A stretch of DNA of 64,000 nt. Origin: Levilinea saccharolytica (lineage in GTDB: Bacteria > Chloroflexota > Anaerolineae > Anaerolineales > Anaerolineaceae). The translations under genes and the position numbers were made by a program. The stretch lies in the NCBI RefSeq assembly GCF_001306035.1, contig NZ_LGCM01000060.1, forward strand, positions 124,001-188,000. The letters run 5' to 3'. Below the pieces are notes generated by a model that worked only from the letters and a program-made list of their open reading frames with translations, ran no database searches and was not told the origin of the DNA. Shown in pieces: positions 5,935 through 26,815 of this stretch (the stretch's first letter is position 1; each line of letters begins with the position of its first letter).

Positions 5935-7848
5935 CTATTCTTGCCCAGATTCAGCGGTTTTTTCTTCTTGCGTCTGGTTCTTACGGGTTCGCCAGCGGAA
6001 TGTTGAGTGCTTTTTGCCGTTGCCTCGCGCCTCATCGTCATAATAGCTGTATTCGCCCTTGTAATACCCGGAGTAATAGCGGTAGCCGCCGTAGTAATTG
6101 GGGCGGTTGCGCGGAATGCGGTTGAGCACCAGCCCCAGCACATTGGCCCCCACCCGGCGCATCTGTTCCAGGGTGGCTTGGGCAGCGTCCACCGGCGTGC
6201 GGCCCGGGTGGATCACAAACAGCACACCGTCTACCCGCGAAGCCAAAATGGAAGCGTCTGCCACCAGGAACGGTGGAGCGTCCACTACCACCACGTCCGC
6301 TTCTTCCAGGGCCGATTGGAGAACAGCCGCCATGCGGTCAGACGCCAGCAGATCAGTGGGGTTAGGGGGCAGCCCGCCGCTGGTGATCACCTGAAGGGTG
6401 GTTTCCTTCCACTGGCCCATCACCTCATGCAGCGATTTCGCGTCGCGGAACAGGTTGCTCAGGCCAACCCGGTTGGGCAGATTGAGGTATTGGTGCACGC
6501 GCGGACGGCGCAGATCCGCGTCAATCAGCAGGGTTTTCTTACCGCCCTGGGCCATGGTGATCGCCAGATTGGTCGCCACCGTAGATTTGCCTTCGCCAGG
6601 GTGCGCACTGACCACCAGGATGCTGCGGATAGGGCGGTCTACCCCCGCGAATTCCAGGTTGGTGCGCAGGGTGCGAAAGGCCTCAGAGACCGGCGAGCGC
6701 GGGTTCTCGGCCACATAGGCTTTATCCTGATCATGCTCCAGCTCGGCGATGAAGCCAATCACCGGCACGCCCAGTGCCGCCTCTGCCTGCTCCGCCGATT
6801 TGACCGTGTCATCCAAATACTCAATCAGGAAAACGATGCCAGCCGCCAACAGCAGGCCGACCGTCCCCCCCAGCAAACCCGTGCGCACGGGTTTCGGGCT
6901 GAGCGGCTCTTCCGGCGGGATCGCCGGTTCGATTGAAACGATATTAGACGTGCTGCTGAGGCGCGCCAGGCGGATGTTTTCATAGCTGGAGAGCAGGTTA
7001 GCGTGGATCTGGCGGTAAAGCGCCAGGGTGGACTGCATTTGCTCCTGCTCCACATTGGCCGAATTTTCATTGCGGCTCTCGCCCAAAACCACCAGGTTAG
7101 TATAGATTTGCTGGTACAGATCGTAGGTGGTCTCCAGCTCTTTAAGCTCCAGTTCTTTTTGGTTAATCTCCGCGCGGATCTCTGGAGAAGGGGTGGGTGT
7201 GGAATACCAGCCTGCCTCCGCTTTGGGGGAGCGCAGCGTATCCAGAGCGGTGCGAATGGCCAGGATTTCCGTTTGCAGGCGGTCCAGTTCCGATTTGGCT
7301 TTTTCAATCTGCTGTTCAGACTGTTCGGTGGTCGCGGCTGTGGAACGGGACTGCAGGGCTTCAATCTGCGCGTCAATCTGCGCAATCTGCGCCTCCAGGC
7401 TGCGTTCCGATTCGTTGAAGCGCTCCGCCTGCATGCGGCTGTTGCGTTCGATAAAGACTTCCACCAGGGTGTTGGCGATCGAAGCCGCGCGCTGCGGGTC
7501 GGTATCGGTGACAAAAATGTCAATTAATTGGGTGTTTTGAACAATTTGCGCGCGGATCTGCTCTGGGGTGATGGCAGTGTTGATTCGCTCCGCCACGGCA
7601 TCCAACACAGGGCGGCTACGCAGCGTCTGCACATAGGTTTGGGCCAATTGGTTTTGCTCGACATACGAGTTGTAATCCATGTTGGGAACCGTTTTCACCG
7701 CGCTGACAATCTGCACACGGATGGAGCTTTCATAGATCCGGGTCTGGCTATTCGCAAAGAAGAAAGCGCTGACTGCCCCCAGGAGCAATCCCAAGATCAG
7801 CAGCCAGGCCCACCGCCGCGCAATTTGAAGATATTCTTTAATTTCCAT
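5935..7848 (-). CDS. Polysaccharide co-polymerase/tyrosine autokinase (Wzz-BY-kinase fusion)
   Basis: This 637-residue protein controls chain length and export of capsule or exopolysaccharide. The N-terminal Wzz domain has a membrane helix at about 15-35, a long periplasmic coiled-coil region, and a second helix near 340. The C-terminal cytoplasmic BY-kinase carries a Walker A (GEGKST, G418-T423), a Walker A' (LLIDADLRRP) and a Walker B-like VVVDAPP. It ends in a tyrosine cluster (YYGGYRYYSGYY) that is the expected autophosphorylation tail. A Shine-Dalgarno AAGGA stands 8 bases before the ATG. It is encoded downstream of the glycosyltransferases and upstream of the LysM gene; a cognate low-molecular-weight phosphatase is not in the window. 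Confidence 0.95.
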   Translation of the reverse strand: MEIKEYLQIARRWAWLLILGLLLGAVSAFFFANSQTRIYESSIRVQIVSAVKTVPNMDYNSYVEQNQLAQTYVQTLRSRPVLDAVAERINTAITPEQIRAQIVQNTQLIDIFVTDTDPQRAASIANTLVEVFIERNSRMQAERFNESERSLEAQIAQIDAQIEALQSRSTAATTEQSEQQIEKAKSELDRLQTEILAIRTALDTLRSPKAEAGWYSTPTPSPEIRAEINQKELELKELETTYDLYQQIYTNLVVLGESRNENSANVEQEQMQSTLALYRQIHANLLSSYENIRLARLSSTSNIVSIEPAIPPEEPLSPKPVRTGLLGGTVGLLLAAGIVFLIEYLDDTVKSAEQAEAALGVPVIGFIAELEHDQDKAYVAENPRSPVSEAFRTLRTNLEFAGVDRPIRSILVVSAHPGEGKSTVATNLAITMAQGGKKTLLIDADLRRPRVHQYLNLPNRVGLSNLFRDAKSLHEVMGQWKETTLQVITSGGLPPNPTDLLASDRMAAVLQSALEEADVVVVDAPPFLVADASILASRVDGVLFVIHPGRTPVDAAQATLEQMRRVGANVLGLVLNRIPRNRPNYYGGYRYYSGYYKGEYSYYDDEARGNGKKHSTFRWRTRKNQTQEEKTAESGQE

Positions 7849-22804: not shown

Positions 22805-24085
22805 TTAGTTAATCATCCATTTACTTTCAGCAAAAAACCTACCCCTTGTGGTTAATAATTCTCGGTTCAATTCTTTTTGCTTTAGAACTCTAAAATTGAA
22901 GCATCTCTCCACTTTGTCCACCCTGGTGTGATGAAGTCCTACCCAAAGATTGATCACATAATTATCTGGGAATAAATGGAGGGGTGGAATTATCGCTGTT
23001 ACAATCGGATTTTCGTTCGAGATCTTATTTGCCATCTCAATTTGGGGTTCATATTCACTCTCAAAATGATAAAGGGGGTAATCGTTTTCATCTAATATTT
23101 CGATTGCATAGTTTAAGTTAAGTCGTAAAGGATTGCTAACTCTAAATTCAATTTTGATTTCTTTATCCATTTCAAAACTGAGAGATGGGTTATTTTCAGA
23201 GTTTATCATTCGCGCCCAGGTTATTCTTGCTTCTCCACTACCAGAATGAGGCAAATCACTACAATCGATCTCGCCAGGGGTGCTATTTCCAATACCTTCT
23301 TTTGTTGATTCGAGGTATTTGTTTATTACCTCCGTTGAATCACCAGTATATTGGATCACTCCTCTTTTTATTATTAAGGATTTCGGGCACAAATTTCTCA
23401 CCGCACCCATATTGTGGCTCACGAAGAGTACTGTTCTCCCCTCTTTGGATGCCAAGTCGCCCATCTTGCCCAGGCACTTTTTCTGGAACTCGGCGTCGCC
23501 CACGGCCAATACTTCATCAATCAGTAGGATTTCAGACTCTAGGAATGCGGCGACTGCGAATGCAAGCCTTACGAACATACCGGTGGAATAACGCTTGACG
23601 GGTGTCCCTATGAACTGTTCGATCCCTGCAAAAGCCACAATCTCATCAAATTTGCGGCGCACCTCCTGGCGGGTCATGCCCAAAATGGCCCCGTTCAGGT
23701 AAATGTTCTCGCGGCCGGTCAGCTCGGGGTGAAAGCCGGTGCCCACCTCCAGCAGGCTGGCGATGCGCCCGCGCACCTTCACCTGGCCGCTGGTGGGCGC
23801 CGTCACCCGCGAGAGAATTTTGAGCAAAGTGCTCTTACCCGCCCCGTTGCGGCCAATGACCCCCAATACCTCACCCTGATCCACCGTGAAGGAAACGTCC
23901 CGCAGCGCCCACATTTCCTCACCCATGCGGTTGCCGTGGTCGGTTTCGCCGATGCGCAGCAGCGGGTTGGGCTTGCCGCGTACCCTGGCCCACCACACCG
24001 ACAGGTCGCGCGCAAAGGTGCCCGTGCCGATCTGGCCCAGGCGGTAGGATTTGGATAAATGTTCAACGGAGATGACAGGGGGCAT
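22805..24085 (-). CDS. Polysaccharide ABC exporter ATPase with Wzt-type C-terminal domain
   Basis: The first 240 residues form the nucleotide-binding domain: Walker A GRNGAGKSTLLK, the Wzt-type signature RYSTGMFVRLAFAVA, Walker B EILLIDEVLAVGDAE and the H-loop LFVSHNMGAV. Residues from about 255 onward form a beta-rich domain like that of Wzt, which recognises the finished glycan. The likely start is the ATG at 24085 (PPVISVEHLSKSYRLG); a TTG at 24106 would lengthen it. The 5' part is GC-rich and the 3' part strongly AT-rich, with the change around 23.4-23.6 kb, so the gene looks recombinant. Its permease partner lies upstream, separated by the GxxExxY gene and repeats. Confidence 0.92.
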   Translation of the reverse strand: MPPVISVEHLSKSYRLGQIGTGTFARDLSVWWARVRGKPNPLLRIGETDHGNRMGEEMWALRDVSFTVDQGEVLGVIGRNGAGKSTLLKILSRVTAPTSGQVKVRGRIASLLEVGTGFHPELTGRENIYLNGAILGMTRQEVRRKFDEIVAFAGIEQFIGTPVKRYSTGMFVRLAFAVAAFLESEILLIDEVLAVGDAEFQKKCLGKMGDLASKEGRTVLFVSHNMGAVRNLCPKSLIIKRGVIQYTGDSTEVINKYLESTKEGIGNSTPGEIDCSDLPHSGSGEARITWARMINSENNPSLSFEMDKEIKIEFRVSNPLRLNLNYAIEILDENDYPLYHFESEYEPQIEMANKISNENPIVTAIIPPLHLFPDNYVINLWVGLHHTRVDKVERCFNFRVLKQKELNRELLTTRGRFFAESKWMIN

Positions 24086-24129
24086 AAGTGAGAGAAACCT
24101 CAACAACTTTCATTGGAAAAATCATTTTC

Positions 24130-24160
24130 GAACCGCTAAGCAACAAAGCACGCCAGGAAT
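24130..24160 (+). repeat. Inverted partial match to the 94-bp tandem repeat
   Basis: The stretch GAACCGCTAAG followed two positions later by a CAAAG block matches, in reverse orientation, the part of the 94-bp repeat reading ACCTTAGCGGTTC. It lies just downstream of the GxxExxY gene, so that gene sits between oppositely oriented copies. The match is short and imperfect. Confidence 0.35.
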
Positions 24161-24167
24161 GAATGGT

Positions 24168-24557
24168 TTAATGCTGATGGACCATTCGCTTGATGCCCTG
24201 TTTGATTAAGAGCACATTCCAATTGATCAGAAATCCTAGAGAGCAAGCCTGCAATTTCATGTAGGTCAGCAGTTGAGCTTCATGGATGGGCAAAATAGCG
24301 GCGGATGTTTTGTTTTCAACGATTACACATTCCTCGACCAGCATGTCGATCCGGTAGCCTGCATCGATGAGAATTCCATCATAAGCCACTGGCAAGGATA
24401 CTTCGCATTCTACTTTCAGGCCGCGTTTACGCAGCTCGTGAGCCAGACAAATTTGGTAGGCAGATTCAAGCAGGCCAGGGCCTAATGCCTGATGGACTTT
24501 TAGCGCCGCATCCACAATTTGCTTGCCAATTTCGTCTTTTTCTTCTCTTGTTTTCAT
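24168..24557 (-). CDS. GxxExxY family protein
   Basis: The product of about 129 residues contains ALKVHQALGPGLLESAYQIC, which includes the family-defining G-x-x-E-x-x-Y motif, and downstream residues such as DAGYRIDMLVEECVIVENK that resemble a PD-(D/E)XK nuclease-like core (D, then E-x-K). The biochemical role of this family is unknown. The longer frame to 24662 runs backwards into the tandem repeats and its extra residues are repeat-derived, so I prefer the ATG at 24557, although no strong ribosome binding site is visible there. It interrupts the permease/ATPase pair of the polysaccharide exporter and is flanked by repeats. Confidence 0.78.
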   Translation of the reverse strand: MKTREEKDEIGKQIVDAALKVHQALGPGLLESAYQICLAHELRKRGLKVECEVSLPVAYDGILIDAGYRIDMLVEECVIVENKTSAAILPIHEAQLLTYMKLQACSLGFLINWNVLLIKQGIKRMVHQH

Positions 24558-24586
24558 ATTCACTGCCGCAAGCTTTTTCTTTTTCG

Positions 24587-24941
24587 CCGCCAAGAAGCCA
24601 AGGACGCCAAGGTTTTTTACCCGATCTTTCTTTGGACCCTTCGCGCCTTCGCGATTCTCCAATACGAAGGCACTCTTTTTACCGCCAAGACGCCAAGAAC
24701 GCTAAGGTTTCTACTTCATCTTTCTTTGCGTCCTTTGCGCCTTCGCGGTTCTCCAATACAAAGACGCTTTTTTTACCGCCAAGACGCCAAGAACGCTAAG
24801 GTTTCTACTTCATCTTTCTTCGCGCCCTTTGCACCTTAGCGGTTCTCCAATACAAAGACGCTTTTTTTACCGCCAAGACGCCAAGAACGCTAAGGTTTTT
24901 TATCAGATCTTTCGTTGCGCTCTTCGCACCTTCGCAGTTCA
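24587..24941. repeat. Tandem repeat, about 3.8 copies of a 94-bp unit
   Basis: Units begin at about 24587, 24682, 24776 and 24870, each with CGCCAAGACGCCAAGAACG (or a close variant in the first), then a T/C-rich middle and CCTTTGCGCCTTCGCGG. The middle two copies are nearly identical, the outer ones more diverged. The array fills the gap between the GxxExxY gene and the permease gene. Repeats of this CGCCAAG/CTTCGCG style are scattered through many bacterial genomes; I recall them near GxxExxY genes. Confidence 0.9.
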
Positions 24942-24965
24942 CTACTCACCGCGAAAATATCCGGC

Positions 24966-25841
24966 CTACACCGTGTCCATAAACGTGGCCTCGACTCGGT
25001 TAAAAATCACCGCGCCCAGCAGCACCACCACCAGCATAAAGCCAAAGCTATACAGCAAATGCCACAGATCCACCGTGCCCGCCCCCAGGAACGCATAGCG
25101 GAAAGTCTCCACAATCGGCGTCATAGGGTTGATCTGAATCACCCACTGCCAGCCCTGGGGGATCGAAGAGACCGGATAAATCACCGGCGTGGCGTACATC
25201 AGCAGCTGCACCCCAAACTGCACCAGAAAGCGCAGGTCGCGGTATTTGGTGGTCAGCGACGAAATGATCACGCCAAACCCCAGGCCCAATCCAGCCATCA
25301 TCATAATCAGCAGCGGCGAAAACGCCACCCACAGCCAGTTTGGCGAAATCTGCGACCCTTGCACAGCGAAGAACAGGGCAAAGATCAGGAACATGCCAAA
25401 CTGGATGACGAAAGTGATCAAATTGGAAATCAGAATAGAGACAGGCACCGCCAGGCGCGGGAAATACACCTTGCCGAACAGGTTAGCGTTCTGCACAAAA
25501 GTGTTGGAGGTTTTATTCAGGCAGTCGGCAAAGTAAGACCAGACCACCGTGCCGGACATGTAAAAGAGAAACTGCGGCAGGCCGTCGGTGGGCAATTGGG
25601 CAATGTTGCCGAAAATCACCGTGAAAGTGATGGTGGTCAGCAGCGGCTGGATCAAATACCACAGCGGGCCAAGAATGGTCTGCTTGTACACAGCCACAAA
25701 ATCGCGCCGAACAAAAAGCATCACCAGATCGCGGTATTTCCACAATTCACCCAAGCGCAAATCGAACAGCCCGCGCTGCGGTTCGATAATTAAATCCCAA
25801 GAAGCATCTTCAGGAGGGGTTTGCATCAACGTTTCTGTCAT
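24966..25841 (-). CDS. Polysaccharide ABC-2 exporter permease (Wzm/TagG-like)
   Basis: This protein of about 291 residues begins with a cytoplasmic segment ending LWKYRDLVMLFVRRDFVAVY and KQTILGPLWYLIQPLL, the standard entry of ABC-2 export permeases, and continues with six hydrophobic helices. TNPxTP-like INPMTPIVETFRYAFLG sits before the last helix, as in Wzm/TagG proteins. With the Wzt-like ATPase it should export a finished glycan across the inner membrane. The frame extends to 25985, but the added residues are basic and unlike the family; I take the ATG at 25841, without a clear ribosome binding site. Confidence 0.9.
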   Translation of the reverse strand: MTETLMQTPPEDASWDLIIEPQRGLFDLRLGELWKYRDLVMLFVRRDFVAVYKQTILGPLWYLIQPLLTTITFTVIFGNIAQLPTDGLPQFLFYMSGTVVWSYFADCLNKTSNTFVQNANLFGKVYFPRLAVPVSILISNLITFVIQFGMFLIFALFFAVQGSQISPNWLWVAFSPLLIMMMAGLGLGFGVIISSLTTKYRDLRFLVQFGVQLLMYATPVIYPVSSIPQGWQWVIQINPMTPIVETFRYAFLGAGTVDLWHLLYSFGFMLVVVLLGAVIFNRVEATFMDTV

Positions 25842-25956: not shown

Positions 25957-26472
25957 TCAGGCAATTTGCTTTTTCTTCTGCACAAAACCGGTGGGCAGTT
26001 CCACCGGGATTTGCCGTCCGCGCAAAAACTGGATCAAAACGCGCACCCGCTCCTTATCGGAGAGGCTGGCGTCAAAAATGGCCTCATAGCCGGCAAACGG
26101 CCCACCATCAATGCACACCCGGTCCCCAGCCTTCAGCTCGTGCAGCTGCTCGCCGCCCGAATCCTGAATGGCAGACACCCGCTGGCGGATCGCGCCGATC
26201 AACCCCTCCGGCACGCTGGCCGGCTCAGCGCCAAAACACACCAACCCGGCCGAACCCGGCATCCAATGGAAAGTGGAGGAACTGACCTGGTCCAGATCGA
26301 CATGTACAAAAAGGTAACCCGGAAAATACGGCTTCACCTTTCGCGCGCGGGGGTTAACCGTGCGCACCGGGATGCGCGGCAGAAAGGCTTCCAATTGGTG
26401 AGCCGCCAGTTGACTGAAAAAGAAACTTTCTTTATTCGGTTTACTGCGCAGCACATACCATGATAGGGCCAT
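25957..26472 (-). CDS. NusG/RfaH-like transcription antiterminator
   Basis: This protein of about 171 residues has the NusG N-terminal domain (SWYVLRSKPNKESFFFSQLA, PYFPGYLFVHVDLDQ) and a C-terminal KOW domain (LKAGDRVCIDGGPFAGYEAI). It resembles specialised paralogues such as RfaH and UpxY that bind RNA polymerase and prevent early termination in long polysaccharide operons. I use the ATG at 26472, seven bases after GAGGAA; the frame could start at 26496. It is the first gene of a minus-strand run of about 21 kb ending with the LysM gene, which fits an operon-specific antiterminator. Confidence 0.9.
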   Translation of the reverse strand: MALSWYVLRSKPNKESFFFSQLAAHQLEAFLPRIPVRTVNPRARKVKPYFPGYLFVHVDLDQVSSSTFHWMPGSAGLVCFGAEPASVPEGLIGAIRQRVSAIQDSGGEQLHELKAGDRVCIDGGPFAGYEAIFDASLSDKERVRVLIQFLRGRQIPVELPTGFVQKKKQIA

Positions 26473-26815
26473 TGAGGCTTCCTCACAGAGGGTCACTCAA
26501 AATCAACAGCGAAAACCAACAGCTATGCACAATTATAGGATGATTCTACACGATTCGAGTCAAGCAGTCTTTTCCCCCACAGAATGTCATCTTACCGTTA
26601 CCGCCAGAGGGTGACTCCTCATCAGCGTTATTATACTATCATGTTATGATTTTAAAGAAGTAATATTCGACCGAAATTAATCGTGACAGTTGTTAAAAGG
26701 CAACCTTCCCGGTGCAAGCTTCCCCTCCTCCCCCACCTTCGACACGCTCTTTCTATTCCGTCCTGAATCCCATAAAATAAACACATCAAAAAAAGCGAAA
26801 CGGACAGGCACACCC
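26473..26815. other. Divergent intergenic region with repeated 13-mer
   Basis: This stretch separates the polysaccharide operon from the plus-strand thioredoxin-like gene. It holds a minus-strand promoter-like sequence (26630-26658) and two near-identical 13-mers, CAGAGGGTCACTC at 26486-26498 and CAGAGGGTGACTC at 26605-26617, in the transcribed leader of the operon. These could be operator or antiterminator loading sites. No gene was found inside. Confidence 0.5.
26630..26658 (-). promoter_or_regulatory. Candidate promoter of the polysaccharide operon
   Basis: On the minus strand a perfect TATAAT lies at 26635-26630, with a weak -35-like TTCTTT about 18 bases upstream. It would give a leader of roughly 150 bases before the NusG-like gene. 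Confidence 0.45.

Follow-up and report, generated by a model that had tools for sequence, protein, structure and literature searches.

A GxxExxY gene between the exporter genes wzm and wzt of Levilinea saccharolytica, bracketed by inverted iteron arms: a probable member of a family of one-gene mobile elements

Genes and repeats at the locus

The DNA analysed here (a 64-kb stretch of the Levilinea saccharolytica genome, called the window) carries the two genes of an ABC exporter, separated by a short gene and its repeats:

22805-24085, minus strand: wzt, exporter ATPase with a Wzt_C domain, the downstream neighbour (Pfam PF00005 and PF14524; ATG at 24085)
24130-24162, minus strand: lone iteron arm 3' of the GxxExxY gene, decayed, outer end GAACCGC (inverted repeat; half-unit at 24131-24156 on the minus strand, 18/23; fails the strict iteron rule given below)
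24168-24557, minus strand: GxxExxY gene, 129 aa, encoding a Cas4-like PD-(D/E)XK protein (TIGR04256, E 1.7e-40; PF13366 PDDEXK_3, E 5.8e-39)
24578-24940, no strand: amplified arm of 3.8 94-bp units on the 5' side of the GxxExxY gene (TRF; half-unit scan; strict iteron clusters)
24966-25841, minus strand: wzm, ABC-2 exporter permease, the upstream neighbour (PF01061, E 3.4e-21; stop codon ends at 24966)

The gap between wzt and wzm is 880 nt, and both TRF and the profile matches confirm the preliminary description of this DNA, which had placed a GxxExxY gene and about 3.8 copies of a 94-bp repeat between the two. The open reading frame listed for the gene starts at a TTG (24168-24662) and extends into the 94-bp array; since its domain match begins only at residue 44-45, the ATG at 24557 is the likelier start. 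A gene for a NusG/RfaH-type antiterminator precedes wzm (25957-26496, minus strand, by profile matches), a common placement in exporter operons. No Rfam match was found in 23900-25200 up to E 1.

TRF (minimum score 50) reports a single array in the window, at 24578-24940, with a period of 94 and 3.8 copies. The inverted partial match previously noted on the far side of the gene is also present: 24130-24162 is 76% complementary to the array. When the whole window was scanned with a 26-nt half-unit consensus at a threshold of at least 18/23, the only matches were eight in the array, on alternating strands (24585 minus, 24631 plus, 24680 minus, 24725 plus, 24774 minus, 24819 plus, 24868 minus and 24914 plus), plus an inverted one at 24131; there were no such matches in a Markov null of 5 x 64 kb. 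The array thus consists of half-units in alternating orientation, and the ninth, across the gene from it, is inverted; inverted arms therefore stand on both sides of the gene, and repetition of the arm pair produces the 94-bp period. Within each half-unit about three short iterons, mostly CGCNAAG, follow one another in steps of 8 and 9 nt. The preliminary description, which took the 94-bp repeat as the unit, is therefore corrected on this point: the meaningful unit is the arm, 26 nt long, with about three CRCNRAK iterons in steps of 8-10 nt, and the 94-bp period is secondary, a local tandem amplification.

Under a strict rule (at least three CRCNRAK at steps of 7-12), the array contains iteron clusters at 24683, 24777 and 24871 (plus strand) and at 24741 (minus strand), and the 3' arm contains none. 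No target duplication is seen at the window copy, which is best read as an old, partly decayed element with one arm amplified. A further strict cluster lies at 7364-7391 (minus strand), far from the cassette and from any GxxExxY match in the window, and may be chance.

Inverted iteron arms around GxxExxY genes

GxxExxY genes occur in 92 of the 151 genomes of the order and in 76 of the 400 genomes of a phylum sample. Loci were drawn from the window's genome, its order and named genomes, in each case from the top of score-ranked lists. In a pair test that assumes no motif, the 220 nt upstream of each gene were compared with the reverse complement of the 220 nt downstream; three of 102 loci had short flanks and were dropped, leaving 99. 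The median score was 20.5 for a gene's own pair versus 10.5 for mismatched pairs, with 65 of the 99 above the 95% point (and 37 above the 99% point) and 34 not passing the former. A first run with 28 genes and 200-nt flanks had given 19 versus 10, with 18 of the 28 above the 95% point, while 18 Wzm controls scored 7-14.5. The window's own arm pair scored 17.0, just below the 95% point of 17.5 (8.0 in the first run with 200-nt flanks).

The arms share a common plan, namely ACC or TCC followed by CRCNRAK iterons, with a core that varies between elements. Under the strict rule, inward-facing clusters were found on the left of 48 and on the right of 48 of the 99 genes, and on both sides of 32; outward-facing clusters numbered 13 and 12. 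The controls were nearly empty: 0 on the left and 1 on the right of 27 Wzm genes, never both; strict CRCNRAK arms at 0 of 28 IVP genes (PF05635); and 4 of 454 strand-windows far from the genes of the first set. The steps between iterons in the first set were all 8, 9 or 10 (245/245), though 7, 11 and 12 were allowed. With the rule fixed beforehand, a replication set of 40 loci outside the order, from the top of the phylum list, gave inward clusters on the left of 25, the right of 28, both sides of 24 and either side of 29, with outward clusters at 6 and 3; far strand-windows gave 4 of 158, steps of 8-10 made up 149 of 150, and 31 of the 40 loci lay above the 95% point of the pair test.

With the two sets combined, 394 of 395 steps are 8, 9 or 10. 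Strict inward arms stand on both sides of 56 of 139 GxxExxY genes (the window's not among them) versus 0 of 27 Wzm controls, the 139 holding one place twice (L115 in one set is L279 in the other). Inward arms were found on 149 of 278 GxxExxY flanks versus 8 of 612 far strand-windows. In these counts relatives are not independent and several loci are orthologs; much of the sequence, moreover, belongs to metagenome or many-contig assemblies, in which repeats give rise to chimeras. That this class of repeats is specifically linked to GxxExxY genes is thus borne out in both the order and the phylum sample. Gene orientation was given no weight: both neighbours are co-oriented with the GxxExxY gene at 53 of 92 loci (2 unclear), a count that has no genome baseline. 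Three GxxExxY matches lie within 6 kb on a single contig in one genome (G079:C14:59634-65354).

The arm core follows the protein

For comparisons of protein and arms we left out four proteins with stops (L037, L121, L122 and L267) as well as L115, which leaves 137 loci, 92 of which carry spaced iterons in both arms, at least two per arm. The left and right cores of these 92 agree at letter 2 in 86, letter 4 in 75, letter 5 in 88 and letter 7 in 87 (shuffled means 52, 36, 48 and 42). The core letters also change seldom on the protein tree:

Letter 7: 7 changes (shuffled mean 34, minimum 27 of 300)
Letter 5: 13 changes (shuffled mean 29, minimum 22)
Letter 4: 21 changes (shuffled mean 38, minimum 31)
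Letter 2: 16 changes (shuffled mean 24, minimum 19)

The first 59 elements alone gave 3 changes versus 19.9 at letter 7 and 14 versus 17.5 (minimum 9) at letter 2. Both arms of an element share a core, and the core follows the protein clade. Common descent of a gene with its arms would likewise group the core labels; recognition or ongoing conversion is argued for by the fact that the arms keep one core while the proteins fall to 33-40% identity. The earlier suggestion that the repeats are the target or substrate of the GxxExxY protein thus gains indirect support from the concordance of arm with arm and of arm with protein.

The GxxExxY protein

Membership of the window protein in the family is clear (TIGR04256, 138 bits against a cut-off of 35; PF13366, 133.5 bits against 22), and at E 0.001 or better PF13366 is its only Pfam match, beside TIGR04256. 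Residues E31, D71, E81, K83, Q95, G26 and G28 are present in 138 of 138 alignment rows, and Y34 in 136 (137 loci, the window's gene twice), counts that lean towards good copies, as the lists were ranked by score and the broken copies of genome G046 (see below) were excluded. The AF2 model of the window protein has a mean pLDDT of 96.6. Its top match by Foldseek and VIA-align is 4ic1 (SSO0001, a Cas4; E 2e-3, Z 9.6), followed by other nucleases and some unrelated chains. By sequence, the PADLOC Cas4 model matches weakly (E 1.8e-3 for the window protein, 4.8e-4 for that of L051), and no solved structure matches at E 1.

Among 18 locus pairs, dN/dS was 0.03-0.16 in the eight with usable dS; eight pairs were saturated, and two further pairs were too close (0.33 and 0.85). 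The low values, together with flanks kept in several elements, suggest some standing function. We found no function for GxxExxY proteins in the literature searched. No relatives of the window protein were found in phage records at E 1e-5. Seven plasmid records carry one, all typed non-mobilizable. Three of the seven were read. In a Sphingomonas parapaucimobilis plasmid the gene lies between fabD and fabG (L245:1155-1620); the iterons CACGCGAAGGCGCGAGGACGCGAAG immediately precede its ATG, and on the opposite side no arm was seen; the Gemmatirosa plasmid gene has iterons on its 3' side only, in the stretch read; and the Bernardetia plasmid gene, between ade and a mannose-1-phosphate guanylyltransferase gene, has short arm-like stretches on both sides.

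Gene-less copies of the repeat in the same genome

The window's genome (4.23 Mb in 65 contigs) holds three PF13366 genes and 29 matches to the 94-bp repeat at 18 places, 17 of which adjoin none of the three genes. The preliminary description had named repeats equally frequent away from GxxExxY genes, joined with the lack of an empty-site comparison in favour of insertion, as evidence against its proposal; the first half of this holds within this genome, where the repeats do lie mostly away from such genes, but the relatives and the genome survey point the opposite way. Beside the remaining two GxxExxY genes, L001 and L003, no half-unit reaches 18/23, though L001 has one at 16/23, and their pair scores are low (9.0 and 8.5); L003 has scattered iterons, enough for the label CGCAGAT.

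The gene-less copies (13 loci scanned) are strings of two to eight plus and minus half-units, with arms often in opposite order, and so are not simple internal deletions. When the stretches beside eight gene-less repeats were searched for in four relatives, three paired sites were obtained, all in G151, a genome of the same genus. There the L023 repeat region is absent, the L011 region has one half-unit versus five, and the eight-half-unit array of L010 (L010:1316-1662) recurs (counterpart in L317) with unit variants specific to each genome. An array homogenised differently in two genomes is concerted evolution, and arrays that grow, shrink and convert would account for the 94-bp array of the window. 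By eye, several gene-less copies (L009, L012, L015, L016 and L018) lie among other dispersed palindromes, of the GGTGCGTTCGATGAAG and GTCATTGCGAG/GAAGCAATC types, in mosaics of repeat families.

Mobility in a relative

The proposal of a small mobile unit is borne out, as regards mobility, in genome G046 of the same order (59% complete), by sharp ends, many end matches and duplications at some copies. This genome contains 32 PF13366 pieces. The pieces that were compared represent a single element, about 450 bp long, in copies 76-99% alike; it begins GTATTTGTTTACCGCC... and ends ...GCGGTAAACAGATAC. Matches to the element end (at most 3 mismatches) number 74, versus 1 for a reversed control. Several copies share a reading-frame break at the same residues, and internally deleted forms keep both ends; the complete units, of which there are 14, span 99-537 bp. 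Of five translated copies, four show a disrupted or truncated domain or no ExK motif, and L124, which is cut by a contig end, keeps ExK in its visible stretch. With eighteen of the 74 ends at most 140 bp from a contig's first base, the element seems to interrupt the assembly.

Duplications of 8 bp accompany four of the 14 complete copies: two are perfect at the exact ends, one is 7/8, and the fourth (L137) is a perfect 8-bp repeat with a left end 8 nt shorter. None was found at the remaining ten. A general 8-bp target duplication was looked for in 71 older elements and not found, with no excess at k=8 (0 perfect, 0.04 expected); only k=4 was in excess there (20 versus 7.6), on which we do not build. 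Joining the flanks of 11 copies gave a two-sided element-free site for L136 only, in G033 and G006, whose counterparts are too diverged for a duplication to be read.

Exchange at fixed sites and the wzm-wzt joint

Both flanks are homologous in 48 locus pairs, and at five loci among them similar flanks (81-98% identical) surround a very different gene (61-74%); exchange is counted by these loci, not by pairs:

L260/L271: flanks 95 and 98%, gene 61%; iteron core changes with the gene
L288/L291: flanks 95 and 97%, gene 68%; iteron core changes with the gene
L166/L194: flanks 91 and 95%, gene 69%; iteron core changes with the gene
L275 versus L282/L283/L284/L290: flanks 89-95%, gene 73-74%; core stays of the CACGAAG kind
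L168 or L174 versus L176/L177: flanks 82-90%, gene 61-64%; iteron core changes with the gene

At the last of these, flanks and gene give different groupings, and in L291 a stub of a CACGAAT-type arm persists outside its CACAGAT-type element. Allelic replacement at a fixed site, the mark by which homing endonucleases are judged, was thus found at five loci; other pairs look vertical (for example L176/L177, L191/L199, L178/L204 and L282/L284/L290).

The wzm-wzt joint was read next to ten Wzm orthologs of 65-82% identity. In four of these relatives wzt starts 26, 2, 0 and 3 nt after wzm (G163, G154, G021 and G025, the first two by eye), which supports the earlier view that the cassette is an insertion between normally adjacent genes. 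In G064 and G157 other sequence intervenes, and a wzt start lies at a distance of 1.2 and 1.3 kb. The joint of G165 holds an IVP gene (PF05635) with heptamer repeats (L057:974-1345, E 8.5e-31), after which wzt begins MPPVISVE as in the window. G027 has a GxxExxY element after wzm and an IVP gene before it, the next gene being TPR-like by eye; in G073 wzm is followed by a gene resembling that TPR-like one, without a GxxExxY element, and in G005 another gene follows wzm. Elements have thus inserted at this joint repeatedly, and they are of two kinds, GxxExxY and IVP.

Interpretation

We hypothesize, with a probability of roughly two in three, that the window cassette belongs to a family of one-gene mobile elements in which a Cas4-like PD-(D/E)XK protein reads the iterons and makes its cuts or nicks at them. 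An element consists of a GxxExxY gene between two inverted arms, each made of ACC or TCC and about three CRCNRAK iterons at 8-10-nt steps, as found in the surveys. Such elements can spread to many sites, with an 8-bp duplication at some copies and internally deleted copies left behind, as seen in G046, and are swapped for a different element at the same site, as at the five exchange loci. The protein most likely binds the iterons of its own element, to judge from the covariation of core and clade, and the putative nuclease, going by its modelled fold, may cut or nick at the arms during transposition or allelic replacement; the exchanges would then stem from nuclease-driven repair rather than from plain recombination between strains. 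The 94-bp array probably arose later, by unequal recombination between neighbouring half-units, for which the arrays shared with G151 offer a parallel within the genus.

The chief rival, which we consider unlikely, is that the elements are MITE-like units moved in trans by an unrelated DDE transposase, with GxxExxY as cargo that stabilises or regulates the element. Defective GxxExxY copies did multiply in G046, the gene is under purifying selection at fixed sites, and 8-bp duplications are usual for several DDE families. Yet the 14 complete G046 units (at most 537 bp, in a genome 59% complete) are too short for the usual DDE gene, and no longer inward-facing pair stands close together among the listed end matches, many of which are at contig breaks; moreover, the iteron letters covary with the GxxExxY clade in the order as well as in the phylum sample. 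A role of the arms in RNA is improbable: a folded transcript would be cut by RNase III and the element excised, or the operon mRNA processed, after the manner of rRNA intervening sequences, and the arms do form inverted repeats that are long though imperfect, the array folds more stably than shuffled sequence (z -5.25), and the Coxiella intervening sequence is cut by RNase III according to the available part of PMC4990558. A stem, however, needs neither 8-10-nt iteron steps nor a core tied to the protein clade. The arm-arm mismatches of 101 elements show no G-U bias (147 G-U versus 179 A-C, p 0.086 in the wrong direction); the RNA-stem role is not supported by this test, which argues for pairing at the level of DNA. 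That the repeats are ordinary dispersed intergenic palindromes, adjacent to GxxExxY genes by coincidence, is hardly credible: the 17 of 18 places away from such genes in the window's genome would fit it, but the counts of arms on GxxExxY flanks against far strand-windows contradict it, and the core letters follow the protein.

Beyond mobility by a GxxExxY nuclease, a more specific and doubtful possibility is that the elements compete as selfish DNA: each Cas4-like nuclease would read its own core, spare or use its own arms, and cut empty sites or elements with a rival core, the break being repaired from the element-bearing copy. If true, this would explain the same-site exchange, the locked arm-protein types and the persistence under purifying selection, would make the elements, along with the IVP ones, a class of mobile DNA, and would account for many of the CRCNRAK-type and heptamer repeats in these genomes. 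More generally, joining GxxExxY genes to iteron arms turns a family without an assigned function and a set of unexplained intergenic repeats into one system that can be tested for binding, cutting and movement, and would help to explain assembly breaks at such repeats and N-terminal extensions read out of them. If GxxExxY is the mobility enzyme, a class relying on a PD-(D/E)XK enzyme only would be added beside those with DDE, HUH, serine and tyrosine enzymes; should the elements instead be moved by a DDE enzyme, they would be a variant of MITE-like elements.

Comparison with known systems

We found no description of GxxExxY elements in the literature searched (in the available part of PMC11270868, no mention of S23 or PDDEXK), and the class is apparently undescribed. 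Terminal inverted repeats are common to the GxxExxY family and to DDE insertion sequences and MITEs, although the window's pair is weak (17.0 against 17.5), and 8-bp duplications are found at 4 of 14 G046 copies, with no excess in the 71 older elements and none seen in the window. The GxxExxY protein resembles Cas4 in its modelled fold and active-site layout (Z 9.6 to 4ic1, the sequence match being weak), but it has 129 aa versus 202-206 for the 4ic1 chains, and its neighbours here are exporter genes; Cas4 carries a C-terminal cysteine cluster.

The nearest kinds, the rRNA intervening sequences with S23p and REPIN/RAYT, both differ in their protein. In the part of PMC4990558 available, the 23S rRNA intervening sequences are selfish, with terminal inverted repeats and heptamer repeats beside the open reading frame. 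They resemble GxxExxY elements in being small selfish one-gene elements with terminal inverted repeats, but their four-helix protein (PF05635) is of another family, to which the window gene has no Pfam match at E 0.001, and those described there sit in rRNA genes, whereas the elements here sit between protein genes. In our set of IVP genes (L083-L112), many are flanked by inverted arms built of 7-nt tandem repeats, and the heptamer differs from element to element; in the pair test, 30 of them had an own-pair median of 18 versus 10, with 11 above the 95% point and 0 above a 99% point that was very high (86.5). A lag of 7 was found in 0.55 of 56 IVP flanks versus 0.00 of 274 GxxExxY flanks, and in 0.07 of 54 Wzm control flanks, including L057 with its IVP element.

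REPs flank RAYT genes, and RAYTs are HUH tyrosine enzymes. In REP/REPIN-RAYT systems, as far as the available part of PMC3116915 goes, a nuclease gene is associated with inverted palindromic repeats that also populate the genome; common to the two systems are inverted palindromic repeats that flank the gene and recur in the genome without it. GxxExxY differs in its PD-(D/E)XK fold, with no HUH match (only PF13366 and TIGR04256 at E 0.001), in arms that are iteron strings rather than a single stem-loop, and in the 8-bp duplications at some copies. Finally, homing by PD-(D/E)XK endonucleases like I-Ssp6803I replaces alleles at a fixed site, according to the part of PMC3943268 available. A small PD-(D/E)XK nuclease gene is shared with these, and no intron or intein family is among the matches of the four proteins scanned here; GxxExxY elements are set apart by their inverted iteron arms and by their occurrence at many unrelated sites.
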